From positions 1 to 64,000 of the forward strand of contig JACVCJ010000009.1 of NCBI GenBank assembly GCA_016742095.1: a stretch of DNA of 64,000 bases, written 5' to 3'. The notes under the pieces were generated by a model that saw only the letters and a program-made list of their open reading frames with translations, was not told the origin of the DNA and ran no database searches. Position numbers and translations under genes: made by a program. Origin of the DNA: Bacteroidia bacterium (GTDB lineage Bacteria; Bacteroidota; Bacteroidia; CAIKAF01). Within the stretch, counting starts at the first letter, position 1. Each line of letters begins with the position of its first letter. Below are positions 3,001-45,997 of the stretch, one piece after another.

Positions 3001-4453
3001 TAGTTCCGTAGGTATCGGCGTCGGAAGCAGCAGCTCCGCCGTCGCGTATCGTAAAGCGAAACACGCCTACACTACTGGAGGTATTGGTAATGGTGGCCGC
3101 CTGGTATTGCGTATAGTCGATATCGGAATTATAGCTAAACGCGGCATCTGCAATGATGTCCGAGAATGCACTGTTGGCGCCGGTACCCTGTATGGCAAAC
3201 ACGTAGGGATCTTCGTCCGCGTCGTCACTGGCGATGCTCAGGGTGGCTGTACGCAGGCCGGGGGCCGATGGCGCAAAGGTCACCTGGAACGTAGTACTGC
3301 CCGAGGCCGCTATGGGTGTGGAAGGAATGGCCGTAAGGGAAAAATCGGCCGCATTGGCGCCGCTTATTGTTACGTAAGGCGATACACCCGTCAGGTTCAG
3401 TGTTGCCAGTCCCTGGTTCTGAATGGTAAAGGTATGCGTTACACTGCCCGAAAGTACCAGTGCCGGACCGAAATCGGTGTCGTCCAATGTGGAAGGGCTA
3501 AGATCGTTATGGACGATGGAAACCGAGTTGCCCGTAAGGTTGATCTCCGGGGCCGGAACGCTGCCGGTACCCTGTATGGCGAACACATAGGGATCTTCGT
3601 CGGGATCATCACTGGCAATGCTGATGCTGGCCGTGCGTGTACCTGCGGCAGAAGGATCGAAGCTAACCTGGAAAGTGGTACTACCCGAGGCGGCCACAGG
3701 CGTAGAAGGAATGGCCGTGACCGTAAAATCGGCCGCGTTGGCGCCGCTGATGCTCACGTAAGGCGATGCAGCACTAAGCGTGAGCGGCCCGCTGCCTGTA
3801 TTCTGTATGGTGAAAGTGCGTGTTACCGTACCGCCGGCCACGGGTGTGGAACCGAAATCGGTATGGTCTGCCGCAGAAGGGATCAGGTCGTTATTGGCGA
3901 TGGAAGTACCGTTGCCGGTGATATCGATCTCGGGGTTGAGGGCTGCGGTATAGGATGTCCATTGAATATTGTCTACGATCACCTGTGATGAACCGGTGCT
4001 TCTGATCTCAAGCTGAACGCTCCCCGAAATATTCAGAACCGAGGAATACGTAACCACCGTATTTGAAGTAGGACTCACTGTGATAGATGTTCCGATCTGA
4101 CCGCCGTTTACCCATACTTCAAGCGAACGGCCACCCGTTGCGGTAAAGCCGCGTACATAATCGAAAGTAAGAGTTCCCATTCCTCCGCTGTATGTAGGTG
4201 AAGTAACCGTACGTGTCGTACCGGAATTACCGAAACATATAGCTTTTCCCGTAAGCGTCTGGTCTGTACGGGCGCCTTGTGCCGTCCATACAACACCGTC
4301 CGTACCGGTCCATGTCCGTGCCTGGTATGAACCCGAACTTGCAGTAGGCAGATTATTGAAATTTTCCTGTCCCTGTCCCCATGTAAATGTTATTCCGGAT
4401 AATACAAGGGTAATAATGAGCAACAACGCCCGCAGGTGATATCCTGTATGCAT
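1..4453 (-). CDS. Large secreted multidomain surface protein, C-terminus beyond window edge
   Basis: I read this frame directly: it starts at ATG 4453 and stays open to base 2 (about 1,484 codons). The ORF track omits it because no stop lies in the window, and no track fragment occupies this frame. Residues 1-28 form a signal peptide (LLLIITLVLSGITFTWG). A beta-rich domain of about 140 residues follows, then two tandem 128-residue units resembling choice-of-anchor D/ASPM-SPD2-Hydin domains (about 172-430, with DFG and SIASDD motifs). After that come long Ser/Thr/Gly/Asn-rich beta-rich segments. Near the edge, LVWSTYSEVNNAYFEIE resembles the Fn3-like segment that usually precedes a T9SS sorting domain. 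I infer a cell-surface or secreted adhesin-like protein whose sorting domain lies off the window. No catalytic motif was recognised. It is transcribed divergently from the AraC-type gene. Confidence 0.85.
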   Translation of the reverse strand, partial: MHTGYHLRALLLIITLVLSGITFTWGQGQENFNNLPTASSGSYQARTWTGTDGVVWTAQGARTDQTLTGKAICFGNSGTTRTVTSPTYSGGMGTLTFDYVRGFTATGGRSLEVWVNGGQIGTSITVSPTSNTVVTYSSVLNISGSVQLEIRSTGSSQVIVDNIQWTSYTAALNPEIDITGNGTSIANNDLIPSAADHTDFGSTPVAGGTVTRTFTIQNTGSGPLTLSAASPYVSISGANAADFTVTAIPSTPVAASGSTTFQVSFDPSAAGTRTASISIASDDPDEDPYVFAIQGTGSVPAPEINLTGNSVSIVHNDLSPSTLDDTDFGPALVLSGSVTHTFTIQNQGLATLNLTGVSPYVTISGANAADFSLTAIPSTPIAASGSTTFQVTFAPSAPGLRTATLSIASDDADEDPYVFAIQGTGANSAFSDIIADAAFSYNSDIDYTQYQAATITNTSSSVGVFRFTIRDGGAAASDADTYGTTLNAITFNVSNIANLRSAALFDGNAMLANNPVIAGSSISFSGLSGSSFTAPDNGSQDLTLRVSFLTTVTDNQQLQFTVSSASASASGSTFALANAGGAASSTSGNRNRIEVTADRLAFVQQPSTTSENVSMSPAVTLSATDVNGNRDLDYVSAVSITSTGTMTGTPLSASAASGLASFGSIVHTVSGTGFTLQATAPGLLPATSTTFDINTVPANSYRTTSNGTWPSSGTATWERFVAGVWTASAAPAANTTSNLYIRHTVTSNAAFAAGAPGTTMIIENNGNFTGAHNCTYASLTVKSGGTMQVNNPGVTVSSSGVIRAESGALVVLNSTTLDNGDGLWDGTEDFQAGSTVELRNWDWDAGSSANRLIRNPSQISANSDGYLFGNFYFNANPGENFNFVQSIPFSGTFLPLTKNDLIIRNASASSAVQLVNTDQDVEIGGTLRVEAGEFRFAAVSVVEVAHTVKGNIVMNAGTINLNPTSGSSNGCVVNLEGDLILSGGTITMADLTATGLKFSGTVLQNIDVKNTVAMSGLKMEVLSGASVQLINQDLRLGNNSDLTVRSGGVFSFNFSAANTPLNITEISAANTTAFAVESGGTIKITSDHNGGALRSGAALSGNVQTDARTFNAGAIYHFIGKSAQVPGNGMPSPVSGRVITELDNASLTLSLEMSRQISGTLQMIQGDIVTGSYLLELGISSAQTGTLNYTDGYVAGTMKRWFNGTNSGAASGLFPFGVGGYDRFVTVEYTAAPTTGGSLTGHFEPVPMGLSGLPLNIAVAGSCAAFSAENTQTEGYWQMDANDGLNGGSYDITLVGENFSGITSLCELTALKRTGGGPWQESGAHQQPQGTLSRPVLQRTGASGWSNWGFSGGIPNPLPVSMGDMEVICGQDGKARLVWSTYSEVNNAYFEIEEGRTPYAFEKAGTVSGAGNSNELNSYSFELPQADMHYVRLRQVDFNGTETLYGPLGIHCGKASFNWQPVWNGAVLQITFDGAAYGLYTSRI
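3166..3935 (-). repeat. Two tandem in-frame 384-bp repeats inside the giant surface gene
   Basis: The string ggtaccctgtatggc occurs at 3182 and again at 3566, exactly 384 bases (128 codons) apart, and the surrounding sequence stays similar across the unit (for example gggatcttcgtc in both). Each unit encodes one choice-of-anchor D/Hydin-like domain. It is a protein domain duplication, not a mobile element. Confidence 0.85.
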
Positions 4454-4654
4454 GTGGTGATAGAATGATTTAGGTATTTCCGGTTGCAAAGAAACAACCA
4501 ACTTTGTGATTGCAAAAGTTCCCGCGTCGAAAAAGCAACTTTTTTTTCACCGAAATTTAACCTGTTTGTGACGACGTTTTTTATACACGTAATTACATAT
4601 AAAGTTAATTTTCATTCATTTTCCTTTTACGTTAGCCTTTTCTTACTGAATTTG

Positions 4655-4662
4655 TATCTTTA
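4655..4662 (+). promoter_or_regulatory. -7 promoter element (TATCTTTA variant) for the AraC-type gene
   Basis: TATCTTTA differs from the Bacteroidota -7 consensus TAnnTTTG only in the last base. Only four bases separate it from ATG 4667, so the transcript would be leaderless or nearly so. No clear -33 TTG was seen. Confidence 0.5.
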
Positions 4663-4666
4663 TACC

Positions 4667-5542
4667 ATGTTGGCAAGTCCTCAAATCCGCATCCCGAAAA
4701 TCGATCTGCCTTCCGGCTTTGTGGCTAAAACCCTGCAACAGGAAGAAACGGGCAAGAAAAACCCTGAAGGAACACCGCACCGGCACAACTTTTTTACCGT
4801 GCTGTGGATCACCCGCGGTTCGGGTATTCACCAGATCGACTTTACCGATTTCCCGATCGAGAACCAGTACGTACATTTCGTAAGTCCGCAGCAGGTGCAC
4901 TGGTTCCGCTCCGATCCGGGTGTGGAAGGCTACCTCTTCCTGTTTACCGAAGACTTCCTGCAGGCCTGCGGCATCAACCCGCGTTTTTTGCAGGCCCTGG
5001 GCCTCTTTACGGGCTGCACACAGGCCGAACCGCTCTTTATCCCGGCCGATAAAAGAGCCGCCCTCAAGGAACTCTGCGTCAAGGCCATTGCCGAAACCGA
5101 TCCCTCGCACGATTTTTACCTGGAAGCCGCCGCCTCGTACCTGCGCCTCTTCCTGATCGAATGCAGCCGCATCAAAGGACTTATTCCCAACGAAATAGAG
5201 AACCGGAACGAAAACCGCATCCTGAAATCCTTTCTCGATAACCTGGACAATCATTTTCACCAGAAACACAAAGTGGCCGAATACGCCAGCCTGCAGAACA
5301 TTACGCCCAATTACCTCAACGAAGTGGTAAAGGAAGCCAGCGGGGCCAGCGCCAAGGAACACATTCAGAACCGCCTTTCCCTGGAAGCCATGCGCTACGC
5401 TACCCACAGCGATATGACCACCAAGGAAACGGCTTTTGCCCTGGGCTTTGACGATCCGGCGCATTTCTCTAAGTTCTTCAAGAAGATGAAAGGCATCGAC
5501 TTCACCGGCTTCCGGGAACAGATCCGCAGGCAGCATTTATAG
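4667..5542 (+). CDS. AraC-family transcriptional regulator
   Basis: A 291-residue DNA-binding regulator. The N-terminal half has a cupin-like ligand-binding domain (HRHNFFTVLWITRG, then the VSPQQVHWF strand). The last ~100 residues are the double helix-turn-helix: YASLQNITPNYLNEVVKEA is the first, and FALGFDDPAHFSKFFKKMKG is the classic second recognition region. The track starts 61 codons upstream at 4484, but those residues are a low-complexity, non-conserved leader; ATG 4667 follows a -7 promoter element and gives normal family length. It lies divergent to the giant surface gene, 213 bases apart, so it may control that gene; this is inferred from position only. The effector is unknown. Confidence 0.88.
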   Translation: MLASPQIRIPKIDLPSGFVAKTLQQEETGKKNPEGTPHRHNFFTVLWITRGSGIHQIDFTDFPIENQYVHFVSPQQVHWFRSDPGVEGYLFLFTEDFLQACGINPRFLQALGLFTGCTQAEPLFIPADKRAALKELCVKAIAETDPSHDFYLEAAASYLRLFLIECSRIKGLIPNEIENRNENRILKSFLDNLDNHFHQKHKVAEYASLQNITPNYLNEVVKEASGASAKEHIQNRLSLEAMRYATHSDMTTKETAFALGFDDPAHFSKFFKKMKGIDFTGFREQIRRQHL

Positions 5543-10839: not shown

Positions 10840-11784
10840 TTAAAACCGATGTATTACCTCTATATTGAACTCTTTCAGTTCGGCGCGGGCCTTTTCCAGG
10901 TCCGGGGCAAAGCCCAGCAGGTAACCGCCGCCGCCGCTTCCGCAGAGTTTCAGGTAGTAACTTTCACTTTCCAGACCCTGTTTCCATACTTTACGGAACT
11001 TTTTGGGGATCATCGGGTCCAGGTGGGCGATCAGGAAGTGCGAGAGCTCTTTTACGTTGCTCAGCAGGTCTTTGGCCTCGCCTTTCAGGAACGCTTTAAT
11101 ACAGTTATCGTTGAAAGGGATCATTTCCTTGCGCACCAGGCCCAGGAAACCGTCTTCCTTGCATTTATCGAGGAACAGCTGCACCAGCGGACCGGTTTTT
11201 CCCACCTGTTTGGTATCGATAAGGAATATGCCGCCGTTGCCGGTCTTTACGCTCTCGGGGATCTGTACCGCACCGATGGCCTCCTTGTTCTCGATGAGCA
11301 GGGGGTGCTGCAGGTAACAGATAAGCGGGTCCAGACCACTGCTGGTGCCGTGGAAATAACATTCCATTTTTGCAAACTGGGCTTTCAGTTTCAGTATATC
11401 GTCCGTGCCCGGTTTTTCTTCGTTGTACACTTTATCAAAGGCATAACGCTCGTACAGGGCCGCCACCAGGGCGCCGCTGCTGCCTACACCGTAGCCCTGC
11501 GGAATGGTACTGTCGAAGATCAGGCCCTTTTCAATATCGGCGTTCAGCGCCTCAATATCGAAGGTAAAACCCAGCTCTTTCTTTTCTACCAGCCCCTGCA
11601 GGTATGCCGCGTACTTTTTCAGATCGGCATTGCTCTGTTTTGCCTCTTCCTCAGACAGGTTACGGCTTTTGAACGTAAGCTTGCCCTTGTAGAAATCAAA
11701 GGGAATAGTGAGCCCCATCGAGTTATGAATGATGCTGTACTCACCAAACAACAAAATCTTTGATTTGAAGTTTTTGTTTGCCAT
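10840..11784 (-). CDS. Mevalonate kinase (GHMP family)
   Basis: A 314-residue cytosolic kinase expected to phosphorylate mevalonate with ATP. The N-terminal KILLFGEYSIIH is the GHMP start motif. GYGVGSSGA (97-105) is the ATP-binding loop, FHGTSSGLDP (144-153) is the mevalonate-kinase-type motif with the catalytic Asp152, and LCGSGGGGYLLGF near the C-terminus is the third GHMP motif. It is the last gene of the mevalonate operon, six bases after mvaD, and is followed by a strong terminator. Operon context supports mevalonate rather than another GHMP substrate. Confidence 0.9.
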   Translation of the reverse strand: MANKNFKSKILLFGEYSIIHNSMGLTIPFDFYKGKLTFKSRNLSEEEAKQSNADLKKYAAYLQGLVEKKELGFTFDIEALNADIEKGLIFDSTIPQGYGVGSSGALVAALYERYAFDKVYNEEKPGTDDILKLKAQFAKMECYFHGTSSGLDPLICYLQHPLLIENKEAIGAVQIPESVKTGNGGIFLIDTKQVGKTGPLVQLFLDKCKEDGFLGLVRKEMIPFNDNCIKAFLKGEAKDLLSNVKELSHFLIAHLDPMIPKKFRKVWKQGLESESYYLKLCGSGGGGYLLGFAPDLEKARAELKEFNIEVIHRF

Positions 11785-11790
11785 TTCGGG

Positions 11791-12873
11791 TTATTTCAGT
11801 TTTACCGGGCCATTCCCTTCTTTATCAAAGATAATGGAATTTCCGGGTAAATGTTTAGCTATTTCGTTATTCAGGAATGTGTGCACCTTCTCCTTCTCGC
11901 TTTCGGGGTAGATCAGGTGTATGTTCGGACCGGCGTCCAGCGTAAAACACATGCGTATTCCGTGCTGTTCGCGGTACTGTTTCATGATATCGAGCAGTTC
12001 CAGGGTCTTGGGCTTCATCAGGATGAACCAGGGATAGCTCATCATCATCATGCCGTGCAGGGTAAGGGCCTCGTTCTCTACCAGTTCGGCAAAACGGTTG
12101 AAGTCGCCTTCGCCGATGGCCTGTAACAGGGCGTCCATGTTCTCACGGGCATGCTCAAAACGGCGTGTGGCGTAGGGATTGGTCTTCATCAGTCCGTGGC
12201 CGGCACGTGAACTTACGCTCTTTTCGCCGCGGTCGCAGATAATGATGGAATCCTGCAGGTTCTGAAAGTCGGGATGTACCTGACCTTCGTACTTGCTGGC
12301 AAACAGGTCCGATGTTTCGGGCAGGGCATCGATGGCCCCCCAGCTTACCAGTCCGCCGTATACGGAACGGCTGGCGCTGCCACTGGCCAGGCGCGAAAGA
12401 ACGCTGGCTTCGCGGTAAAAAGAGGCATCGTCGGTATGCAGGCCGAACACGCGGCGCTCCATTTCTACCAGGCACATGCAGAAAGCACTCATGCCGCTTG
12501 CCGAAGAGGCAATACCGGCCGAATGCGGGAACGTATTCTCTGATCCCAGGCGGAAACGCATGCCCGACAGGTAAGGACGCTGGGGCAGCTGACTTTCCAG
12601 GAACTTTTTGATCTTGTTGCCGAACGCTTCATTGGCCTTTCCTTCGAAATAAAATTCTACTTCGGGACCGTTCTCCGCTGCCGACCATTCCATCTCCGTT
12701 TTGGTATGGCATGCCGAAAGCGTAATGCTGATCGATGGATTGGCAGGGATCTGGTTATCGTATTTTCCCCAGTATTTGACCAGGGCAATGTTCGACGGAC
12801 TGGTCCATGCCGTGTGGCCGTTCGCAAATTCAGCCGGAAGGGTTTCCGGGTATGTTTGTGTTTGTGCGTTCAT
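11791..12873 (-). CDS. mvaD: Diphosphomevalonate decarboxylase
   Basis: A 360-residue enzyme expected to convert mevalonate diphosphate plus ATP to isopentenyl diphosphate, CO2, ADP and phosphate. Hallmarks are SPSNIALVKYWGKYD (25-39), HSAGIASSASG (117-127, ATP loop), SGSASRSVYGG (164-174) and the catalytic Asp in CFTLDAGPNIH (D313). Length and motifs match the family. It starts two bases after the GYDIA-type kinase stop, so the genes are tightly coupled in one operon. Confidence 0.95.
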   Translation of the reverse strand: MNAQTQTYPETLPAEFANGHTAWTSPSNIALVKYWGKYDNQIPANPSISITLSACHTKTEMEWSAAENGPEVEFYFEGKANEAFGNKIKKFLESQLPQRPYLSGMRFRLGSENTFPHSAGIASSASGMSAFCMCLVEMERRVFGLHTDDASFYREASVLSRLASGSASRSVYGGLVSWGAIDALPETSDLFASKYEGQVHPDFQNLQDSIIICDRGEKSVSSRAGHGLMKTNPYATRRFEHARENMDALLQAIGEGDFNRFAELVENEALTLHGMMMMSYPWFILMKPKTLELLDIMKQYREQHGIRMCFTLDAGPNIHLIYPESEKEKVHTFLNNEIAKHLPGNSIIFDKEGNGPVKLK

Positions 12874-12875
12874 GA

Positions 12876-13787
12876 TTAATCTCGCAATAAGACGTTTGAA
12901 TACCCTAAAATTGTTACAAAACCCTTGTCAAAAAAATACTTCCTGGTCACTTTCTCCTCATTTTCAGACACTACCATTACAAAATCTCCGCCCCAGGCAC
13001 CCATACTTTTTACGGCGCCGGCAAAATCGGGGAAGTATTTCTGCTGTACGGTCTGTGTCTGCAGTATACGGCTCATGATCTGCTCGTGCTCCTTCATAAA
13101 GCCGGCCAGTTCGCGGGGAGTAGCCGCCGTGCAGAAGTCCGCTGCCAGTTCGCTGATGCGCTGTACGTCGGCGTCGCTGATCACGGCCTCTTTAAAGAAT
13201 TTCTTTACTTCGGCCGAACTGTTCTGCTTGTTGCCCAGGTACACAAAAAAGATCTGTTCCTTGAACGGCGGGTCGAAGGGCGCGGGTTCCACGAGGGGCG
13301 TTCCTTCCCGGCGGGTAAAGAACAGCGGCCCCGAAGCAATGGCGCAGGCCAGATCATAACCACTGCCGCCAAAGGTATCGGCCAGCAGCTGATAGGGATC
13401 TACTTCAGCATATTCTGCCAGCAGGGCCAGCAGGGTGCTGCTGGTGCCCAGTCCCCAGTCCCGGTCAAAATCGGTATCGAAACGGAATTCTTTCCCCCTG
13501 AATTTACTTACTACTTCCGGGCGCTGACGCAGTATGGAGGCCATAATTTCGTCGAGGCGGTCGCCGATGGCCGGCAGGTTGGTGGCCGTAACGCATATGC
13601 TGCTGTCCAGTGTAGCCTCGAACCAGGCATTGCCTTTTTCGGCGCTGTACCAGCGGCAGCCTTCATAGGCAATATCGCTTACCTGCATACGCTGCCCGTA
13701 TCTCAGGGGCAGGGCCAGGGCTCTGGCGCCTTTCAGCACCATGTATTCGCCGCTGAGTAAAAATTTGCCGTGGGCGCGGTATTCCAT
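12876..13787 (-). CDS. GYDIA-type GHMP kinase, probable phosphomevalonate kinase
   Basis: A 303-residue GHMP-fold kinase. The N-terminus has HGKFLLSGEYMVLKG, WGLGTSSTLL (111-120) is the ATP loop, and GSGYDLACAIASG (141-153) is the motif that gives the GYDIA family its name, here with Leu for Ile. It lies between HMG-CoA reductase and diphosphomevalonate decarboxylase and the operon has no other candidate for the phosphomevalonate step. I therefore infer phosphomevalonate kinase; the sequence alone does not fix the substrate. It starts three bases after the reductase stop. Confidence 0.82.
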   Translation of the reverse strand: MEYRAHGKFLLSGEYMVLKGARALALPLRYGQRMQVSDIAYEGCRWYSAEKGNAWFEATLDSSICVTATNLPAIGDRLDEIMASILRQRPEVVSKFRGKEFRFDTDFDRDWGLGTSSTLLALLAEYAEVDPYQLLADTFGGSGYDLACAIASGPLFFTRREGTPLVEPAPFDPPFKEQIFFVYLGNKQNSSAEVKKFFKEAVISDADVQRISELAADFCTAATPRELAGFMKEHEQIMSRILQTQTVQQKYFPDFAGAVKSMGAWGGDFVMVVSENEEKVTRKYFFDKGFVTILGYSNVLLRD

Positions 13788-35390: not shown

Positions 35391-36212
35391 TCAGGGTTCC
35401 CAGAGATCGGCCTCCCAGGTACGGATATGCTCCTTTATGGCTTCCGCTTCCAGCAGGGCTTCCATACCGCCTGTCGTGTAATCGGTAATACGGCGGTCGT
35501 ACACGTTGTCTTCCTTGTATACAAAGCCCGAGAACAGGCGTTGCCGGAACGCATCGTCATATGTGAGGATACCGGCCATATTAAAGCGGTTATAGATGTT
35601 CACGTTGGCCAGCAGACGGCGTAATTCGGGGAAATAGATCCAGTACATGTCCTGTTCGGCGCGGAATTCGCCCGTCTTCGGGTCGTACACCTCGCGCACG
35701 GGACAGATGCCGATGATACGCACTTCCAGTACGGAGCGCGCCTTATCGAATACCCAGTCCTCCTTCAGGCGGAATTTTTTGACGGAAGCCGGGTCCAGTG
35801 TTTCCACACGCTTTTTCTCCACGGCTTCGTAGGGCGGTTCGGGCATGTAATCCTGGTAGTATACCGTATCGGTGCCGATCGACAGCGCGTCTGCGTTCTG
35901 CATGCGTACCGTAAGATCGTCATAGGCCGGATCGTAGGCCTGCAGTTGCCCCGCCTGCAATCCGCCCTGTATAATGCTGAACAGGCTGCGGCGGCCGTTC
36001 GTGATCTCGAAGGGATAATACAGGTACTGGTTCATCTTCTCGCGCAGGTCGATCACCCGCCAGATACGGCGCTGCCACATTACGTCGGCTTCGCGCAGGG
36101 AGGCATAAGGGACCGGTTCACGCAAAATGACAACAGGCTCTCCTCCGGGTTCTCCGGGCTGGGCAGCCAGCAGCAGCGGAAAAAATACGCTGAAGAAACA
36201 GATACTTTTCAT
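35391..36212 (-). CDS. gldO: GldN paralogue (GldO-like), gliding/T9SS component
   Basis: A 273-residue exported protein (signal peptide 1-17). It is clearly homologous to the adjacent GldN: ADVMWQRRIWRVIDLREKMN, YYPFEITNGR, KEDWVFDKARSVLEVRIIGI and MYWIYFPELRR all have counterparts there. In Flavobacterium johnsoniae gldN and gldO are adjacent paralogues with partial redundancy, and this pair looks like the same arrangement, although the duplication may be independent. GldN-type proteins form the periplasmic GldKN ring of the T9SS. An intrinsic terminator separates it from gldN, so it may be expressed separately or at lower level. Confidence 0.88.
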   Translation of the reverse strand: MKSICFFSVFFPLLLAAQPGEPGGEPVVILREPVPYASLREADVMWQRRIWRVIDLREKMNQYLYYPFEITNGRRSLFSIIQGGLQAGQLQAYDPAYDDLTVRMQNADALSIGTDTVYYQDYMPEPPYEAVEKKRVETLDPASVKKFRLKEDWVFDKARSVLEVRIIGICPVREVYDPKTGEFRAEQDMYWIYFPELRRLLANVNIYNRFNMAGILTYDDAFRQRLFSGFVYKEDNVYDRRITDYTTGGMEALLEAEAIKEHIRTWEADLWEP

Positions 36213-36309: not shown

Positions 36310-37173
36310 TTACTGTTCCCAGAGATCGTGTTCGTAATTACGGATCTTGTCTTTGATGTCCTCGTTTTCCAGGAGGGCCTCCATTCCGTTCTTCATGTAA
36401 TCTTTGATCTTACGGTCGTACACGTTATCTTCCTTGTAGATATAGCTGGAGAACAGGCGTTTCATGAATGCATCGTCGTACGTGATCTGCTGGGCAATGT
36501 TATTGAAGCGGTTGTACACTTCTTCATTGGCCATTTTACGACGCAGTTCGGGGAAATAGATCCAGTACATCGGCTGTTCGCCACGGTACTCACCGGTTTG
36601 CGGATCGCGTACTTCGCGTACGGGGCAGATACCGATGATACGGGTTTCCATTACCGAGCGGGATTTTTCGAACACCCAGTCTTCCTTCACCTGGAACTTC
36701 TTGATGGAAGAATAATCCAGGGGCTGGTAACGGAATGTATCGAATTCCTCGTAAGGTTCATACGGACGATAGTCTGTATAAAAGATGGTATCCGAACCGA
36801 TGGACAACGCCTGTTGCTGTGTCAGAGGCACGGTAAAGTCGTCATATACCGGATCGTAGGGACGCAATTCTCCTTTTTCGATACCTTCTTTGATAATGGT
36901 GATCAGGTTTTTACGTCCGTTGGTAATTTCGAACGGATAGTACATGTACTGATTCATCTTCTCGCGAAGGTCGATCACGCGCCATATTCTGCGTTGCCAC
37001 ATTACGTCGGCTTCCCTGATTCCCGGATAAGGAACTACACGGCGCGAAGGAGTAGTTACTTTATCATACACTCCGTCTCGAGGTTCCATAACCTGTGCGG
37101 ACGCTGACTGGCCAAGTGCCAGGAACAGGAATCCGAGGGCGAAAACTGAGAGAAATCTGAATTTAGAAATCAT
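36310..37173 (-). CDS. gldN: GldN, gliding motility/T9SS periplasmic ring component
   Basis: A 287-residue exported protein with signal peptide (FLSVFALGFLFLALGQSASA). It carries the GldN core: ADVMWQRRIWRVIDLREKMN, QYMYYPFEITNGRKNL, VKEDWVFEKSRSVMETRIIG, PMYWIYFPELRRKMANEEV, YKEDNVYDRKIKDYMKNG. GldN/PorN partners GldK/PorK in a ring under the outer membrane that is essential for secretion. It lies 21 bases after gldM in the gldLMN operon. Confidence 0.95.
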   Translation of the reverse strand: MISKFRFLSVFALGFLFLALGQSASAQVMEPRDGVYDKVTTPSRRVVPYPGIREADVMWQRRIWRVIDLREKMNQYMYYPFEITNGRKNLITIIKEGIEKGELRPYDPVYDDFTVPLTQQQALSIGSDTIFYTDYRPYEPYEEFDTFRYQPLDYSSIKKFQVKEDWVFEKSRSVMETRIIGICPVREVRDPQTGEYRGEQPMYWIYFPELRRKMANEEVYNRFNNIAQQITYDDAFMKRLFSSYIYKEDNVYDRKIKDYMKNGMEALLENEDIKDKIRNYEHDLWEQ

Positions 37174-37194: not shown

Positions 37195-38796
37195 TTAGCG
37201 AACCGGGAATGCAGCGTTCAGTGTAACGGTCCTTCCGTCGGGTTGTTGTACGCGGATCTGCTCAAAGTAGATGGATTTACCTTTCGGGGTTTTGGCCATT
37301 TTGCTTTTTACAGCTTCCGGCAGTACGTTACCGGTAACCGAACTTTCATCGAAGTTACCACCCGGGAAAGAAACTACTTTGAAGCTCAGGATCTTTGAAT
37401 ACAGCGGGAAGTCAAAGTCTTCCATGATCGGCACGATCGCGCTCACGGACTTCACGTGGTTCGAGTTCACGGCATCGCCGGATTTCACGTTACCCCAGCG
37501 AATGGTCGGATCGGGAACACGTTTTACACGGAAAGGCGCTTTACCCATGCTTTGTACGGTACCGTCAGACAGTTTTACGCTTACGCTGATGTCTACGGTG
37601 CTACCTGTACCCGGCTTCAGGATAAATTTACCGTTGGAACCTGTGAAGGAAGCACAACCGGAACAGTTGGCCGTGATCTGGTTGGGAGCAACGCCCGGTA
37701 CCGATACGGTGATCGGGTTTTCCAGACCGCGGTAAACCACGTTCATTTTATCCGGTGATACCGACATCATCGGTTTAGACACCTGGTATTTGGTTTCGAA
37801 GGCCTCTTCGCGAACACCGCCGCTGATGGGGTCTTTGATCTTGATCACACCACTTACCGTTTTCTCACCTTCGCCGGAAGCCTGGATCTTGTAGATACCG
37901 CGGCCGTCAATGAATTCGCTCACCTGCGTGCCGTTGGCGATGATCTCCGGTTTTTCAGTAGAGTTATAGGCGGCCAGGAAGATCTCCGCTTCGAAGGCAT
38001 TACCGGCAAACACCACATTCGATTTCGGGATGATGGCGGCCTTAATGGCATCGAATTTATAGGAGCTGGCCGAGATACGGTTGTAGAGATATTCTACCAT
38101 ATCACCTTCCGCAGCGCGGATATTGTTCTGCCATTTGGTAAGCTCGGTAAGAGCCGCAGGCATAGGCAGGTGATAGAAATAGTAGATCTCCCAGGGAAGT
38201 ATCTCGTCGGATTTGAAACTTTTCTGATCGCTTGTATTCAGGTTTAACTTCAGGTCCGAAGTATCCTTAATGTTATCCAGGAATTCTTTGGACAGCAGTT
38301 TATCGCGGTACTCGGCGATCTTCTTTTTCAGTTCCGATACACGGGCCGAACCGTTCTGTACTTTGCTCGGGTCGTCGGTACCGAAATAATACGTAGGGAT
38401 ATCGTAGTTATCCAGCGCTTTCAGGTTCTTCGCCGTGATGTTTTTGCTGATCACCTCGTCTTTGGTCACACCCTCTGCTTCGGCGATCAGTTCTACTTTC
38501 ATATCCTCGATGTATTTCACCAGTTCGTCTGACATTCCTTTTACTTTAAAGGCTTTGTCATAGTACGGTTTAATACGCTGGAAATTGTCTTTGTAAAGGA
38601 TCTTCTGCTGTTCGAACGAACCATAGATCAGTCCGTTCTTACTTTCGAGGTTTCCTTTCTGCATAACGAGGCCCTCACCTACGATCACGAAGGCATCGAG
38701 GATTTCTTTTGATACGTTCAACGCGAGCATCGCTGTTAACACGAGGTACATCATGTTAATCATCTTCTGCCGCGGGCTCTGACTACCACTTGCCAT
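37195..38796 (-). CDS. gldM: GldM, T9SS/gliding motor periplasmic shaft
   Basis: A 533-residue protein. The N-terminus SPRQKMINMMYLVLTAMLAL, then NVSKEILDAF, is the single membrane anchor that contacts GldL. The rest is periplasmic: helical D1 (about 40-220), then three beta domains (D2-D4), with the C-terminal part VSKPMMSVSPDKMNVVYRGL, then NPITVSVPGV and RVKRVPDPTIRWG, typical of GldM. With GldL it forms the proton-driven rotary motor of T9SS. Length is normal. Confidence 0.97.
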   Translation of the reverse strand: MASGSQSPRQKMINMMYLVLTAMLALNVSKEILDAFVIVGEGLVMQKGNLESKNGLIYGSFEQQKILYKDNFQRIKPYYDKAFKVKGMSDELVKYIEDMKVELIAEAEGVTKDEVISKNITAKNLKALDNYDIPTYYFGTDDPSKVQNGSARVSELKKKIAEYRDKLLSKEFLDNIKDTSDLKLNLNTSDQKSFKSDEILPWEIYYFYHLPMPAALTELTKWQNNIRAAEGDMVEYLYNRISASSYKFDAIKAAIIPKSNVVFAGNAFEAEIFLAAYNSTEKPEIIANGTQVSEFIDGRGIYKIQASGEGEKTVSGVIKIKDPISGGVREEAFETKYQVSKPMMSVSPDKMNVVYRGLENPITVSVPGVAPNQITANCSGCASFTGSNGKFILKPGTGSTVDISVSVKLSDGTVQSMGKAPFRVKRVPDPTIRWGNVKSGDAVNSNHVKSVSAIVPIMEDFDFPLYSKILSFKVVSFPGGNFDESSVTGNVLPEAVKSKMAKTPKGKSIYFEQIRVQQPDGRTVTLNAAFPVR

Positions 38797-38837: not shown

Positions 38838-39665
38838 TTAGTTACCTGCAGGACGGATGTTCATCGCAGACAACATGTTACCGTATACGGTATTCAGTGC
38901 AGACAGATTATTTCCTAATTTGTGAATTTCTTCTTTGTAACGTTGCGTATCGGCTACAGAGTCGTTCAGGTTGTTCAGCAGCTGGGCAATGTTTCCGTAA
39001 ACTTTACCGGTAGCTTCCAGGTAATCCTGTGAACCCTGCAGTTGCAATTCGTATACGTTATTCAGGGCAGACAGGTTTTTGCTTACGCGCTGTAACTGCT
39101 CGCCATAGCTTTTGCCTTCGGCTTCTGTAGAGCTGAGGCCGGTGAGGCTTTCGGCAGCTTTCACGTATGTGTCCGATAATTTGGCAACTGTCTGGCTGGC
39201 GTTACGCACGCTGCTTACGTACTCGTCGGTAGCGCTGGCAGCCGTAGCCACTTCATTCAGCTGTGATGTATTTTCGCTCAGGCGGGAAATGCTGTCGCGC
39301 AGGCTGGTCAACAGTTCCGGACCGATCTTGGCTTCGGCCAGCATTTTATCCAGTTCCTGGGTAACAGAATCTTTTAATACGAGATTTGCGGTACCTACAC
39401 CGCCACCGCCGCGGGCAGCACGTTCTTCGGCAGGTAAGCCTGCCAGTTCAGGGTAAACAAGGGTCCAGTCCACTTCTTCTTTCGGTGTTTCAAACGCCGA
39501 GATCGCGAATATAACGGCCTCTGTAAGCAGACCTACGGAGATAGCGTAGTTGGCGCCGGGTAAGTGAAGGATCTTCATCCACGCACCTACGATTACCACC
39601 GCAGCTCCCAATCCATAGATCAGGTTCATTACAATCTTTCCTCTTTTTGAATGCAAGAATTTCAT
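38838..39665 (-). CDS. gldL: GldL, T9SS/gliding motor membrane subunit
   Basis: A 275-residue inner-membrane protein. Two transmembrane helices lie in the first ~60 residues (KIVMNLIYGLGAAVVIVGAW and NYAISVGLLTEAVIFAISAF). The second contains the Glu in LLTEAVIF that is implicated in proton use by GldL. The remaining part is a cytosolic coiled coil (LLTSLRDSISRLSENTSQLN, later QRVSKNLSALNNVYELQLQG). Its own -7 element lies ~85 bases upstream, in the gap after gldK. Confidence 0.97.
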   Translation of the reverse strand: MKFLHSKRGKIVMNLIYGLGAAVVIVGAWMKILHLPGANYAISVGLLTEAVIFAISAFETPKEEVDWTLVYPELAGLPAEERAARGGGGVGTANLVLKDSVTQELDKMLAEAKIGPELLTSLRDSISRLSENTSQLNEVATAASATDEYVSSVRNASQTVAKLSDTYVKAAESLTGLSSTEAEGKSYGEQLQRVSKNLSALNNVYELQLQGSQDYLEATGKVYGNIAQLLNNLNDSVADTQRYKEEIHKLGNNLSALNTVYGNMLSAMNIRPAGN

Positions 39666-39822: not shown

Positions 39823-41151
39823 TTACTTATAATCCTCTTTAGCTCTACCCATAAATGTTTGCACATTACGGAACCCGATGAACGATTTGCAGGAATCCTG
39901 GTATTCGTAGGTACGTGAAGATGTCTGCAGGAAGAATCCCACATCTTTCCATGAACCACCGCGGATCACCTTACGGCGCAGGGCGATCGGACCGTCCAGC
40001 GCACCGTCTTTGGCTTCATAGTAGAAATCCGGGTTCAGGTCATGCGCAAAGCTGTAGCCTGACTCTTCGAAGGCATCACGGCACCATTCGGCTACGTTAC
40101 CTGCCATACAGTAGAGACCGTATCCGTTCGGGTTGTAGGATTCAACCTGTACGGTTTTGGCGCCACCGTCATCGATATAGTTACCGCGCAGCGGTTTGAA
40201 GTTACCAAGGAAACAACCTTTGGAGTTACGGATATACGGACCGCCCCATGGGTACGGTGATAATTCCAGGCCTCCGCGCGCAGCGTATTCCCATTCCGCT
40301 TCGGTAGGAAGACGGAAATCGTGTACCGGGAACTCACCGCGGCTCTGCAGGTAGTTGTTCATGAAATTCGTTCTCCAGTTCGAGAAACCGTTGGCCTGTT
40401 TCCAGGTAACGCCCACTACCGGATAATCGTCATACGCCGGGTGCCAGAAATACATTTTGGTATGCGGCTCGTTGTATGAATAGGTATAATCGGCTACCCA
40501 CACCAGTGTATCGGGATATACCTTTACACGTTCTTTACGCAGGAACGGACTTCTGTCGTCCTGACCGCGCTCGGGATCCGCAGCGGCCATTTTATAGTCG
40601 ATGAAGTAATATTCGTATACATACTTACGAACGTCGAGTTCGCGTTTTTTGTAGTAACGTTCTTTCTGCGGATAGTACATCTCTTCCAGGGCGTCTGCCT
40701 GATCGGGATCTTCCCATTCGATACGGGTCCTCCAGTTCAGCAGCGGAGGATCCGGCAGGTTCAGGTTCTGAACGTACTCTTCGTATTCTTCGTCCGGGAT
40801 ATAGAATCCTTCTATGCCGGCTTCGCCCAGGAGACGACGCGCCATAGAGTCACGGACCCATTCCACGTACTGGCGGTACTCGTTATTGGATATTTCAGTC
40901 TGATCCATGTAGAAGGCCTCTACGGTAACTGTCTTCGACTGCGAAGTAAAGTTACTCGGCACATCCTGGTCGGAAGGACCCATATTATAGCTACCCATGG
41001 GAACGTATACCATACCGAACGGATCGGGCTGGTACCACTTGGGTCTGTTTTGAGCGCCTACCAGCTGACCTCCGTAGGGGTCGCCGCAGCTATACACGGT
41101 AGCGGCTACTGCTCCGGCCAAAACAACTTTTCTGAGATTTTGCTTTTTCAT
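39823..41151 (-). CDS. gldK: GldK, T9SS/gliding lipoprotein ring component
   Basis: A 442-residue outer-membrane lipoprotein. The lipoprotein signal ends VAATVYSCGD with Cys22. It has the formylglycine-generating-enzyme-like (FGE-sulfatase) fold: GMVYVPMGSYNMGPSDQD, FYMDQTEISNNEYRQYVEWV, PTEAEWEYAARGG, MAGNVAEWCRDAFE, RKVIRGGSWKD. GldK/PorK forms the ring with GldN. The track start at 41190 adds 13 residues before the lipoprotein signal; ATG 41151 is preferred. It lies downstream of the PorP/SprF-family gene. Confidence 0.96.
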   Translation of the reverse strand: MKKQNLRKVVLAGAVAATVYSCGDPYGGQLVGAQNRPKWYQPDPFGMVYVPMGSYNMGPSDQDVPSNFTSQSKTVTVEAFYMDQTEISNNEYRQYVEWVRDSMARRLLGEAGIEGFYIPDEEYEEYVQNLNLPDPPLLNWRTRIEWEDPDQADALEEMYYPQKERYYKKRELDVRKYVYEYYFIDYKMAAADPERGQDDRSPFLRKERVKVYPDTLVWVADYTYSYNEPHTKMYFWHPAYDDYPVVGVTWKQANGFSNWRTNFMNNYLQSRGEFPVHDFRLPTEAEWEYAARGGLELSPYPWGGPYIRNSKGCFLGNFKPLRGNYIDDGGAKTVQVESYNPNGYGLYCMAGNVAEWCRDAFEESGYSFAHDLNPDFYYEAKDGALDGPIALRRKVIRGGSWKDVGFFLQTSSRTYEYQDSCKSFIGFRNVQTFMGRAKEDYK

Positions 41152-41263
41152 TTTCAACACAGATTTCTTGAAAACTTTTAAGAGATGCAATTTTATGGTA
41201 TTAAACGGTAGCTTCCTAAATTAATGATACTTTTCGTTAATTATTTTGTAAAATTTAACGAAA

Positions 41264-42241
41264 CTACGGCGCGTATCGGCGCGTTCTTGAACCCAGGTCA
41301 CGTACGATGAAACCTCCGCCCGACGGCTGATTGATCTCGATCACGAAGCAGTATTTCAGCAGGAGCTCGTGGCTGCCTGAACTGAAACGCAGGATACGTG
41401 ATGTGGTGAGATCGTACGTATAGCTCGCGGTCAGGTTGTGTTGCGAGGTCTGCCAGATCACGGCCCCGCCGCCGATCGAGATCATATCCTGGAAACGGTA
41501 GGTAAGACCACCCCAGTAACGCTTATCCCAGATAATGTTACAGTTGATGTCGAACGAAGGAATGTATTTGAAATCGGTTTTAATGATCGCGTTCGGATTG
41601 ATGTCCAGGCGCGGGTTACCTACACCCTGGAAGGTATAACCGCCCATGATGTACATGTGACGGGCCTGTGTAATGTTCACGTTCTTGGCGCGCAGACCCG
41701 GGATGTTCGATGCGGAGATACCTGCGTACCAGTTATTGGCCTGGTAGTATACACCGGCACCGGCATTGAAGGTAAGGCCCGAACCGGAAGCCGGGATCAG
41801 CGGGTCGCCCAGTACGGTCTGGGGAGCCTGCCATTTGGAACCGTCCACGATCGTGTTCATAAAGCCCAGGTCGATACCCACACGCAGACGGCCTGTGCCG
41901 CCCACCTGGAAACCGTACGCGCCCGCAAGGCGCAGACCCGTATGATTGAAGAAACCGAGACGGTCGTTATACACGCTCAGTCCCACACCTACGTCGTGAC
42001 CTATAATGTTTTTAAGCCCCGCATCCACCGTAAGCTGGTTGGTAAGCGGAGAACCCTCGAAACCCGCCCACTGATAGCGGTTCATAAGGTTCACACAAAT
42101 GTTATTATGAATCCCTGCCGCGGCCGGATTAATAAAAGTTTTGTTAAAATAGAATTGGGTAAACTGAGGGTCTTGTTGAGAAAACAAGCTGGTATTGAGG
42201 GCGAAAAAAGCCCCAAGAGCAAACAAGGATTTGAATTTCAT
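41264..42241 (-). CDS. PorP/SprF-family T9SS outer-membrane protein
   Basis: A 325-residue exported barrel protein with signal peptide (FKSLFALGAFFALNTSLFS). QQDPQFTQFYFNKTFINPAA opens the mature protein and is the PorP/SprF signature, followed by WAGFEGSPLTNQLTVDAGL. Alternating strands and the terminal aromatic region fit an outer-membrane barrel. Family members are linked to export or attachment of SprB-like adhesins, or form part of the PorEP/PorKN complex. Its place directly upstream of gldK suggests the core locus-linked member. ATG 42241 is used instead of the track start 42265. A weak -7 element (TATGTTTA, 42285-42292) is upstream. Confidence 0.93.
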   Translation of the reverse strand: MKFKSLFALGAFFALNTSLFSQQDPQFTQFYFNKTFINPAAAGIHNNICVNLMNRYQWAGFEGSPLTNQLTVDAGLKNIIGHDVGVGLSVYNDRLGFFNHTGLRLAGAYGFQVGGTGRLRVGIDLGFMNTIVDGSKWQAPQTVLGDPLIPASGSGLTFNAGAGVYYQANNWYAGISASNIPGLRAKNVNITQARHMYIMGGYTFQGVGNPRLDINPNAIIKTDFKYIPSFDINCNIIWDKRYWGGLTYRFQDMISIGGGAVIWQTSQHNLTASYTYDLTTSRILRFSSGSHELLLKYCFVIEINQPSGGGFIVRDLGSRTRRYAP

Positions 42242-42383
42242 ACAGTTGCGGTATATGTTTCTCAAATAATATGATTTTGAAACGTAAACATACGAATAAT
42301 TTTTCTTAACAAGTGCAAATGATTAACAAAAAAATGTTCATTTCTGCTTAAGAAAGCGAATCAATTATCTGATGGTTAATAGG

Positions 42384-43559
42384 TTACAAATTTAACTTTT
42401 TTAAAGAGTTCATCCAGCGTTCGGGCACCTCGTTCATGGTCGCCGCCAGGTAGTCCTTTTCGGAACAGGGCACCACGAATTCGGGTACATTATACTGTAT
42501 CTGCAGATCGATCGGTAAGGGTATACGCAGCCACCAGCGGCCCGAAATACGGTTCTGGTAAAAGCGCAGGCTGCTGCTTTCGGTATCGCCGGCCACTTCG
42601 TACGACAGATATTCCGAAGAGGAAAAATCGGGATTATCCACCGTGCGTGCATAAAAGCCGTCGATGATATGCCATACCACCTGGGCCATGGCCGAAGCTC
42701 CCAGGCTGAACTGCGGCGAATCCGTGTCCAGGTTGAACACGCCCGCACAGGTCAGTTTGGGACTCATACCCAGGTAACGGGCCATACGGCACAGCTCTTC
42801 GCCGCGCAGGCCGTTGGGCCATTGTTCCCGGGCCGCCGGACAGGACGAATACTGCATCGACGAGGCGTCTATACTCACCACATCCGCATCGCGCAGGTAC
42901 GGTTCGGCCTCTTCCATCTGTGCACGCAGATCGCCCAGGCGCACCACATCAAAATGCAGGTCGCGGAAGGTCTGCACCAGGCGGGGCGGCACCAGGTAGT
43001 TCTGGTAGCCCATCAGGCTTACATTAAAGAGTTTGTTCAGGCGGTTGAACAGTATTTTGCCCAGCCAGTTGGAAGCGTCCAGCTCTTCGGCCTCATCGCC
43101 CATATCGAGCGAGGCGTCGATCACGCACAGGTTAAAGTACATGTTGCGGCGGCGGTAGGCCTCGTGTATATGCCAGGTATAGTCCTGGCTGTGCCCGAGC
43201 AGGATCACCAGTCCGGCCGAGTTCATGGCCCAGCTCAGGGCTTCCACGATACGGTCGTCTTCGGTCCCGGCCTCGCCCAGGCCTTCGAAACGGATATTTC
43301 CCGCATCGGCCAGGTCGGGTTTATACAGTCCTTTATATAAGGTATAAAGATGTTTACGGATCTCGTCGGGGTAACGGTTGTCCACCGTACCGTCCTTACG
43401 TTCGCCCAGGCCCAGCAGCAGCAGGTCCGGCCGGTTGCTGAGGTCGGGAAAGGCGCCCACATTACCGAAATAGCGGATCGAATCGCCCAGGCGATCGCCG
43501 TTAGGCCGGTCGGGAAGCAAAAAACCCGGTACCGGTGAAAAGAATTCCATAAAATTCAT
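42384..43559 (-). CDS. Degenerate arginase/formimidoylglutamase-superfamily protein
   Basis: A 391-residue protein of the ureohydrolase fold, often named formimidoylglutamase. The three metal-binding regions are altered. LGHSQDYTW (121-129) stands where GGDHS is expected. CVIDASLDMGD (D148, D152) has Ser150 where DAHxD has His. VSIDASSM (229-235) has Ser233 for the second Asp of DxD. At least two manganese ligands are therefore missing, so a full binuclear centre is unlikely. It lies 142 bases upstream of the PorP/SprF gene. Histidine-utilisation genes are absent nearby, so a structural or regulatory role is more likely than histidine catabolism; this is inference. Confidence 0.8.
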   Translation of the reverse strand: MNFMEFFSPVPGFLLPDRPNGDRLGDSIRYFGNVGAFPDLSNRPDLLLLGLGERKDGTVDNRYPDEIRKHLYTLYKGLYKPDLADAGNIRFEGLGEAGTEDDRIVEALSWAMNSAGLVILLGHSQDYTWHIHEAYRRRNMYFNLCVIDASLDMGDEAEELDASNWLGKILFNRLNKLFNVSLMGYQNYLVPPRLVQTFRDLHFDVVRLGDLRAQMEEAEPYLRDADVVSIDASSMQYSSCPAAREQWPNGLRGEELCRMARYLGMSPKLTCAGVFNLDTDSPQFSLGASAMAQVVWHIIDGFYARTVDNPDFSSSEYLSYEVAGDTESSSLRFYQNRISGRWWLRIPLPIDLQIQYNVPEFVVPCSEKDYLAATMNEVPERWMNSLKKLNL

Positions 43560-43693: not shown

Positions 43694-45997
43694 TTACTTA
43701 GCTTTTTTCTTTGGTTTTTTGGCGGGCGCTTCGGCAATGATCTTCTGCACCTCTTCCAGCGTAAGCGCTGCGGGCTCGGTACCTTTCGGTATCTTGTAGT
43801 TTTCCTTGCCCTGTTTTATATACGGACCAAAACGGCCGTTGAGCACCTGTATATCGGTACCTTCGAATTCCTTGATGGTCTTGTTGCTGTCGGCGATGCG
43901 TTTCTCTTCGATCAGCTTAATGGCCTCTCCCATCTGGAAATCGAGCGGATCGGCGCCTTTGGGCAGGGAATAGAACTTGCCGGCATGGCGTACGTACGGA
44001 CCGAAACGGCCTACGCCCACCACCATTTCTTCGTCCTCGAAAATGCCGATCGGTTTCGGCAGTTTAAAGAGCGAAAGCGCTTCTTCCAGCGTAATGGTCT
44101 CGATGCTCTGGTTCTTCTGCAGGCTGGCGAAGCGCGGTTTTTCCTCGTCTTCGGCCTCCCCGATCTGGGCCATGGGACCGTAACGGCCGATGAGGGCATA
44201 TACGTTTTTGCCGGAAGCCGGGTCTACGCCCAGTTCGCGTTTACCTTTGGCGCGTTCGCTGTGCTTTTCGGTATGCTCCACCGTTTCGTGGAACGGACCG
44301 TAAAAATCTTTCAGCATATCCTGCCATTCCATCAGGCCTTCGGCTATTTCGTCGAACTCCTTCTCTACCCGTGCGGTAAAGTTGTAGTCGAGTATCTGCT
44401 TAAAATGTTCGGTGAGGAAGTCGGTAACAATAGTGCCGATGTCCGTCGGGAACAGCTTATTGCGGTCCGCACCGGTCATTTCGGTCTTTACTTCCTTGTC
44501 CACCTTGCTTTTTTCCAGGGTCAGGATGCTGTAGTTGCGCGGTGTACCTTCCAGGTCCTTGCGTTCTACGTAGCCTCTTTTCTGGATAGTAGTGATCGTA
44601 GGCGCATAGGTACTCGGGCGGCCGATACCCAGCTCTTCGAGTTTCTTTACCAGGCTGGCCTCCGTATAGCGGGCCGGAGGGATCGAGAATTTCTCCACCG
44701 CCGTAATGATCTGGCGCTGCAGGGCGTCGCCCTTTTTCACGGCCGGCAGGATCTGGTCATCGTTCTCTTCTTCCTCTTCTTCGTCGGTACTTTCCATGTA
44801 TACTTTCAGGAAACCGTCGAATTTGATCACTTCGCCGCGGGCCACGAATTTTTCCGTGAGGCCGGAACCCTGTATCTCCACCGTGGTCTTTTCCAGCACG
44901 GCATCGGCCATCTGCGAGGCTACGGTACGTTTCCAGATCAGTTCGTACAGTTTCTGGGCGCCGGAGTCCGTGCTTGCCTTCAGTTCCTCGAAATGCGTGG
45001 GGCGGATGGCCTCGTGCGCTTCCTGGGCACCTTTGCTTTTGGTGGTGAACTTACGGGTCTGTATGTATTTTTCGCCGTACTGCGTGCCGATCTGTGCCGA
45101 AGCGCCTTCCAGCGCTGTTTCCGACAGGTTTACGGAGTCGGTACGCATATAGGTGATCTTTCCTTCTTCGTAGAGTTTCTGGGCCAGGGTCATGGTGCGC
45201 GTTACGCTGTAACCCAGTTTACGGCCGGCTTCCTGCTGCAGGGTAGATGTGGTAAAAGGCGCTGCCGGCGTACGTTTGCCGGGTTTGGTCTCCACCGAAC
45301 CGATGCTGAAATCGGCCGAAGTGCATTTTTCCAGGAAATCGAGGGCCTCTTTTTCCGTGGCGAAGCGTTTGTTCAGTTCCGCACGTATCTTAGACGAACC
45401 CACTTTGAACACGCCCGTTACGCGGAAGGCCGACACCGATCTAAAGGCCGAACGTTCGCGCTCGCGTTCCACGATAAGGCGCACGGCCACCGATTGTACA
45501 CGGCCTGCCGAAAGCGAGGGTTTTACCTTTTTCCAGAGTACGGGCGATATTTCGTAACCCACAAGGCGGTCCAGCACGCGGCGGGCCTGCTGGGCATTCA
45601 CCAGGTTCAGGTCGATCTGCCGCGGTTTCTCGATCGCTTTCAGGATCGCATTTTTGGTAATTTCATTGAACACAATGCGGCGGGTCTTGCCGTCTTCGAG
45701 ATTCAGCGTTTCCTTCAGGTGCCAGGCGATCGCTTCTCCTTCGCGGTCCTCATCGGACGCGAGCCATACGGTTTCGCTTTTCTTTACCAGGTCCTTCAGT
45801 TCGCTGATCACTTTTTTCTTGTCGGCGCTGATCTCGTATTTAGGTTCAAAATTGTTCTTTACGTCCACCGAGATGCCTTTTTCGGAAAGGTCGCGTACGT
45901 GTCCGTAGCTCGATTTCACGGTAAAGTCCTTTCCCAGGAACCCCTCTATGGTTTTGGCCTTGGCCGGTGACTCAACAATAACCAGATTTTTTGCCAT
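43694..45997 (-). CDS. topA: DNA topoisomerase I
   Basis: A 767-residue type IA topoisomerase that relaxes negative supercoils. The TOPRIM domain starts LVIVESPAKAKTIEGFLGKD with WLASDEDREGEAIAWHL. The active-site Tyr is in GKITYMRTDSVNLS. RPSTYAPTITTIQKRGYV follows. Instead of zinc fingers the C-terminus has topoisomerase C-terminal repeats (GRYGPMAQIG, GRFGPYVRHAG, GRFGPYIKQGK) and a Lys-rich end (KKPKKKAK). It follows the YqeY-like gene by 21 bases in the same operon. The 661-codon plus-strand ORF over it is a shadow. Confidence 0.97.
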   Translation of the reverse strand: MAKNLVIVESPAKAKTIEGFLGKDFTVKSSYGHVRDLSEKGISVDVKNNFEPKYEISADKKKVISELKDLVKKSETVWLASDEDREGEAIAWHLKETLNLEDGKTRRIVFNEITKNAILKAIEKPRQIDLNLVNAQQARRVLDRLVGYEISPVLWKKVKPSLSAGRVQSVAVRLIVERERERSAFRSVSAFRVTGVFKVGSSKIRAELNKRFATEKEALDFLEKCTSADFSIGSVETKPGKRTPAAPFTTSTLQQEAGRKLGYSVTRTMTLAQKLYEEGKITYMRTDSVNLSETALEGASAQIGTQYGEKYIQTRKFTTKSKGAQEAHEAIRPTHFEELKASTDSGAQKLYELIWKRTVASQMADAVLEKTTVEIQGSGLTEKFVARGEVIKFDGFLKVYMESTDEEEEEENDDQILPAVKKGDALQRQIITAVEKFSIPPARYTEASLVKKLEELGIGRPSTYAPTITTIQKRGYVERKDLEGTPRNYSILTLEKSKVDKEVKTEMTGADRNKLFPTDIGTIVTDFLTEHFKQILDYNFTARVEKEFDEIAEGLMEWQDMLKDFYGPFHETVEHTEKHSERAKGKRELGVDPASGKNVYALIGRYGPMAQIGEAEDEEKPRFASLQKNQSIETITLEEALSLFKLPKPIGIFEDEEMVVGVGRFGPYVRHAGKFYSLPKGADPLDFQMGEAIKLIEEKRIADSNKTIKEFEGTDIQVLNGRFGPYIKQGKENYKIPKGTEPAALTLEEVQKIIAEAPAKKPKKKAK

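Follow-up and report, generated by a model that had tools for sequence, protein, structure and literature searches.

What role does a gene that automatic annotation names formimidoylglutamase play beside the genes for gliding motility and type IX secretion (T9SS)? We addressed this question in a Bacteroidia genome, in a window comprising the whole stretch of 64,000 nucleotides that was analyzed, where an open reading frame on the minus strand (42384..43559; 391 aa, ATG start) adjoins porP/sprF and the gld genes. We label this pseudo-formimidoylglutamase gene at 42384-43559 UH. A sequence-only reading had described its product as a ureohydrolase-fold protein with a broken metal site, placed it at the head of the gliding/T9SS locus, and suggested a possible T9SS-linked, non-enzymatic role.

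A ureohydrolase-fold gene between topA and porP-gldKLMN

The minus-strand order at the locus is topA, UH, porP, gldK, gldL, gldM, gldN, and a second gldN. Profile matches confirmed the same-strand set lying downstream of UH: a porP/sprF family T9SS membrane protein (41264..42265; TIGR03519, 212 bits), gldK (39823..41190; TIGR03525, 572 bits), gldL (38838..39665; TIGR03513, 238 bits), gldM (37195..38796; TIGR03517, 354 bits), and gldN (36310..37173; TIGR03523, 211 bits), all on the minus strand. The position of UH upstream of this set was thus read correctly, but calling it the head of the locus passed over topA, encoding DNA topoisomerase I (43694..45997, minus strand), which lies directly upstream of UH and is its most persistent neighbor. 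The two gldN genes (35391-36212 and 36310-37173, both minus strand) are tandem paralogs that score far above the TIGR03523 cut-off, and the duplication was also seen in many relatives. The porP frame as listed starts with TTG, but translation more likely begins at an internal ATG (MKFKSLFALG), and the gap between UH and porP would change accordingly. Scans with sigma-70 and Bacteroidota promoter models gave results not above chance or no consensus.

UH scored above the curated cut-off of the Pfam Arginase family (PF00491; 24.9 bits, cut-off 22), which matched 71 of 72 UH family members (E-values up to 1), and a profile of the UH family matched the Bacillus subtilis HutG structure 3m1r at 3.8e-19. 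The AlphaFold2 model, built with a 72-sequence alignment, had a pLDDT of 93.9 and a pTM of 0.93; all of its top Foldseek matches belonged to the ureohydrolases (formiminoglutamases, agmatinase, and metformin hydrolase; E-values down to 9.5e-16), and TM scores against the formiminoglutamases were 0.67-0.77 by target length. Ureohydrolase membership is therefore beyond chance, and the predicted structure has the arginase/deacetylase alpha-beta fold, as first read from the sequence (fold matches to formiminoglutamases at TM 0.75-0.77). Matches to PDB profiles and Pfam extend no further than residues 297-309, which divides the protein into a ureohydrolase-fold part (residues 1-303; 42651..43559, minus strand) and a C-terminal extension (residues 304-391; 42384..42650, minus strand).

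A protein search found UH in single copy in 56 of 60 relatives, and a profile search found it in 279 of 296 genomes of the class and about 139 of 199 Bacteroidales genomes, with the weak Bacteroidales match in genome G798 set aside as a generic ureohydrolase. In the phylogenetic tree, a long stem led to a single UH clade (SH-aLRT 100) next to HutG-like proteins of other Bacteroidota, demonstrating that the family is monophyletic and derived from a formimidoylglutamase (HutG)-like ureohydrolase. Outside the class, profile matches ended near position 300-322, without the C-terminal extension. At three loci of one family (L163, L164, and L171), the profile matched only the C-terminal half of UH and the extension; GldL is strongly diverged in these genomes.

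Conserved loss of metal ligands and gain of an extension

Arginases bind metal A through H101, D124, D128, and D232 and metal B through D124, H126, D232, and D234 (metal-ligand positions are given in arginase numbering throughout). Together these six ligands, H101, D124, H126, D128, D232, and D234, complex the Mn ions (PMC6213053). UH of the window keeps three of the six, the equivalents of D124, D128, and D232. The three substitutions proposed earlier were all confirmed: the GGDHS region is rewritten as GHSQDYTW (motif 1, residues 122-129; 43173..43196, minus strand; family consensus GG[SG]QD[LI]T[YF]), with Gln125 at the His that corresponds to H101; Ser replaces the His of DAHxD in DASLD (motif 2, residues 148-152; 43104..43118, minus strand), where the D124 and D128 equivalents are kept and the H126 equivalent is lost; and Ser replaces the second Asp of DxD in DAS (motif 3, residues 231-233; 42861..42869, minus strand), where the D232 equivalent is kept and the D234 equivalent is lost.

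This pattern is a property of the family. Every UH member keeps at most four of the six ligands (none of 219 has five or six), and at least five are kept in all 19 tail-less near relatives. The site B pair, H126 and D234, was never found together among 199 distinct members, whereas D124, D128, and D232 were all Asp in 161 of the 199, and the H101 position was Gln in 158; the Asp triad is incomplete in about a fifth of members. HutG-like relatives also carry the Asp that follows position Gln125 and the one in the SDAPG stretch behind motif 3, so both are inherited rather than new in UH. With the site B pair never intact and the Asp triad mostly kept, the degeneration is both conserved and selective, so that "broken" describes the three lost ligands but not the Asp equivalents, which this protein and most of its relatives retain. 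The consistency with which the other ligands are missing across the family speaks for a non-hydrolytic role, and catalysis has probably been lost.

The extension of ~88 residues is likewise conserved, with F333, W342, W343, C365, Y370, P379, and W382 invariant in a 53-sequence alignment (whole-protein numbering). It matched no Pfam family, and its best E-value in a PDB sequence search was 0.04; a separate model of it (pLDDT 79) matched no known fold (best Foldseek E-value 0.58). The combination of selective, conserved loss and a conserved extension indicates a pseudo-hydrolase that is being conserved rather than a gene in decay, and we consider it very likely that UH is a pseudo-formimidoylglutamase conserved across class Bacteroidia. 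The N-terminus in the window does not resemble a signal peptide, and a signal-peptide-like hydrophobic N-terminal stretch was found in none of 145 members, suggesting that UH is probably cytoplasmic.

The automatic annotation, under which UH would be a working formimidoylglutamase, is extremely improbable in light of these data. Remote similarity to the hutG equivalog profile TIGR01227 exists, and 53 of 60 relatives have an above-cut-off match to imidazolonepropionase (hutI), indicating that a histidine pathway exists; for this reason we do not count a lack of histidine degradation against HutG function. However, the score of UH (21.9 bits) is ten-fold below the cut-off of 229.15, three other members reached only 53.8 to 96.2 bits, and the complete ligand set and the site B pair are absent throughout the family. 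Moreover, a true hutG (288.8 bits, cut-off 229) occurs together with UH in a genome of the same class (G425), and UH is kept in four relatives lacking a hutI match (G026, G039, G049, and G057).

The same evidence leaves room for a second explanation, that UH has nothing to do with secretion and either senses a metabolite or works as a mononuclear enzyme, with the Asp triad and the Gln at position 101 binding one metal ion or small molecule. The carboxylates of one metal site are mostly retained together, the lost ligands are special to the other site, and R68, D85, E219, and R223 do not vary across 72 UH sequences, all of which would fit such a pocket. It is at odds with the partial loss of the triad in about a fifth of members and with the three loci at which only the C-terminal half and the extension are matched, and we regard it as unlikely, though it is the alternative to which we give most weight.

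Gene neighborhood and co-occurrence with T9SS

We counted adjacencies at loci chosen without regard to their neighbors (28 from relatives, a set of 65, and 30 from a phylum sample), leaving out 60 further linked loci that had been picked for linkage. A T9SS gene lay directly downstream of UH at 25 of 28, 25 of 65, and 19 of 30 loci, and topA lay directly upstream at 26 of 28, 45 of 65, and 19 of 30, giving totals of 69/123 for T9SS and 90/123 for topA. Linkage to gldK is thus widely conserved, both in the relatives and in the phylum sample, and the statement in the sequence-only reading that similarly annotated genes sit next to gldK in Flavobacterium-type genomes agrees with the order topA-UH-gldK in a large family of the same class (f46, probably Flavobacteriaceae). 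Yet topA was also present at 68 of the 69 T9SS-linked loci, gldK linkage without topA was seen at 1 of 33 loci, many Bacteroidales have topA-UH without gld genes, and UH stands alone in a Sphingobacteriaceae genome and others. The simplest reading is a single ancestral block, topA-UH-porP-gldKLMN, that was trimmed in different ways. UH also occurs away from topA, beside porP-gldJ-murF or gldJ-murF, in three genomes of one family and one metagenome genome, and these four placements may represent one or two events.

At L098, the gene after UH (11192-13510) encodes a protein of 772 aa that resembles agmatine deiminase and carries a T9SS type A sorting domain, and a member of the same ORF cluster follows UH at L111; at L182, the direct neighbor of UH (1492-5187) encodes a protein of 1231 aa with a type B sorting domain of T9SS. 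In Porphyromonas gingivalis, PGN_1678 lies upstream of porP and is induced with porPKLMN (PMC6994654), but we did not equate it with UH.

Co-occurrence was assessed with GldL or SprA as the sign of a T9SS, SprA being checked only in genomes without GldL. In the class sample, 277 genomes had both UH and T9SS, 2 had UH only, 13 had T9SS only, and 4 had neither; the corresponding Bacteroidales counts were 138, 1, 51, and 9 (Fisher p about 1e-4 in each of these overlapping samples, with phylogeny ignored). Only 2 of 279 UH genomes in the class and 1 of 139 in Bacteroidales lacked both GldL and SprA; with phylogeny again ignored, UH is therefore largely confined to T9SS-bearing genomes, as expected of an accessory factor. 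Even among 30 genomes picked because UH is not beside gldK, GldL was encoded elsewhere in 27, and SprA was found in the remaining three. A core component should accompany the T9SS motor in every genome, but UH was absent from 13 of 290 T9SS-bearing genomes of the class and 51 of 189 in Bacteroidales. It has been cleanly lost in several Bacteroidales, where topA-porP-gldKLM or topA-gldKLM is intact with gaps down to 27-99 bp, indicating that UH is dispensable for keeping T9SS. Evolutionary rates of UH in 63 genomes covaried most strongly with those of TopA (0.38), followed by PorP and GldM (0.23 each), GldN (0.15), GldL (0.03), and GldK (-0.04), a pattern that does not single out T9SS.

These patterns raise the possibility that UH serves topA or another housekeeping function, with its T9SS neighborhood and co-occurrence simply inherited from the ancestral block. 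The more persistent topA adjacency and the covariation with TopA speak for it; against it, UH is absent from 13 of 16 T9SS-less genomes in the two samples, although topA is a housekeeping gene, UH sits beside porP-gldJ-murF away from topA, and topA stays put after clean losses of UH. On balance we judge this improbable, somewhat more so than a sensor or mononuclear enzyme. Nevertheless, the stronger topA linkage, the clean losses, and the covariation with TopA indicate that UH can be no more than a class-specific accessory factor. The proposed T9SS-linked, non-enzymatic role is consequently favored by the conserved degenerate residues and the near-confinement to T9SS genomes and tempered by a topA linkage that outlasts that to gldK, by the losses, and by a rate covariation with TopA at least as high as with any T9SS gene: the link is real but weaker than the sequence-only reading proposed.

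Two narrower associations were considered in Bacteroidales and rejected. Among the genomes tested, GldJ was present in 30 of 30 with UH and 16 of 49 without, which by counts suggests strongly that UH is confined to GldJ-bearing T9SS. On a GldK-L-M tree, however, GldJ absence corresponds to about two events and UH changes at least six times, so that the association amounts to about one loss clade; it is not independent evidence and is suggestive at most. Proteins with a type B sorting domain were likewise more numerous in genomes with UH, but the GldJ-negative clade drives this difference. Among the Bacteroidales genomes tested, nearly all GldJ-negative ones with T9SS encode exactly one such protein, and GldJ-positive ones usually encode several to dozens.

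Proposed role and closest known systems

We propose as the most likely reading, with a probability of roughly one half, that UH is a cytoplasmic pseudoenzyme that is accessory rather than core to gliding-type T9SS, a role suggested by synteny and co-occurrence. A HutG-type ureohydrolase has lost the site B ligands H126 and D234 and exchanged H101 for Gln, gained the conserved C-terminal extension, and been kept across class Bacteroidia, in this scenario for a non-hydrolytic function. From the cytoplasmic side, UH would help to assemble or regulate the apparatus encoded by the neighboring porP-gldKLMN, perhaps contacting GldL or GldM through its new C-terminal face, and the old Gln-Asp-Asp-Asp pocket may hold one metal ion or small ligand. 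A bolder version, which we offer as speculation with long odds, is that UH is a class-wide cytoplasmic regulator whose remodeled one-metal pocket reads a metal ion or metabolite and which relays this signal to the GldLM motor by way of its C-terminal domain, so that gliding and type IX secretion are coupled to metabolism. Our literature searches, which covered few subscription papers, returned nothing relevant linking gldK or T9SS with formimidoylglutamase, arginase, hutG, or topoisomerase, and no biochemical or genetic data on UH, including a gliding or secretion mutant phenotype.

Whatever its function, the name formimidoylglutamase is unsuited to UH. The gene occurs in hundreds of Bacteroidia genomes, where names of this type probably lead to pathways being called falsely; histidine degradation was reported as absent except for formiminoglutamase in one genome paper (PMC11278836), which may be such a case. 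UH also offers a clean example from nature of a binuclear enzyme that loses one metal site and keeps the carboxylates of the other. If the T9SS role is true, a conserved cytoplasmic part beside the best-studied T9SS motor genes has so far been overlooked, and UH would bear on how the cytoplasm contacts that motor.

Among known proteins, HutG (TIGR01227; PDB 3m1r, 1xfk, and 4mxr) is nearest to UH in the tree and shares its fold, and the motif frames of HutG (GGGHD, DxHxD, and SxDxDAxxxSDAPG) can still be recognized. UH differs in the replacement of two His and one Asp metal ligands, in its extension, in scoring far below the curated cut-off, and in its gene neighborhood. PorP/SprF, GldK, GldL, GldM, and GldN share its locus, strand, and nearly the same set of genomes; unlike these T9SS components, UH is cytoplasmic as judged from its sequence, is absent from many intact T9SS loci, and is limited to one class.

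The closest parallel for a degenerate ureohydrolase is the beta subunit of metformin hydrolase (MefH-beta, or MfmB; PDB 8ryi and 8snf), in which four of the six ligands are mutated and which is metal-free and crucial for the activity of its partner (PMC11399263). By analogy, UH could be the inactive partner subunit of an active ureohydrolase: metformin hydrolase structures were the top Foldseek matches, and the same genome encodes arginase-type and agmatinase-type proteins with intact motifs on other contigs. The MefH subunit genes, however, adjoin in an operon, whereas no active ureohydrolase was found next to UH in the window or among its recurrent neighbors, making this explanation very unlikely. 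Both proteins have lost metal ligands, and UH too presumably has a non-catalytic role; UH typically lacks three ligands rather than four, has no adjacent partner, is class-wide, and carries the C-terminal extension.
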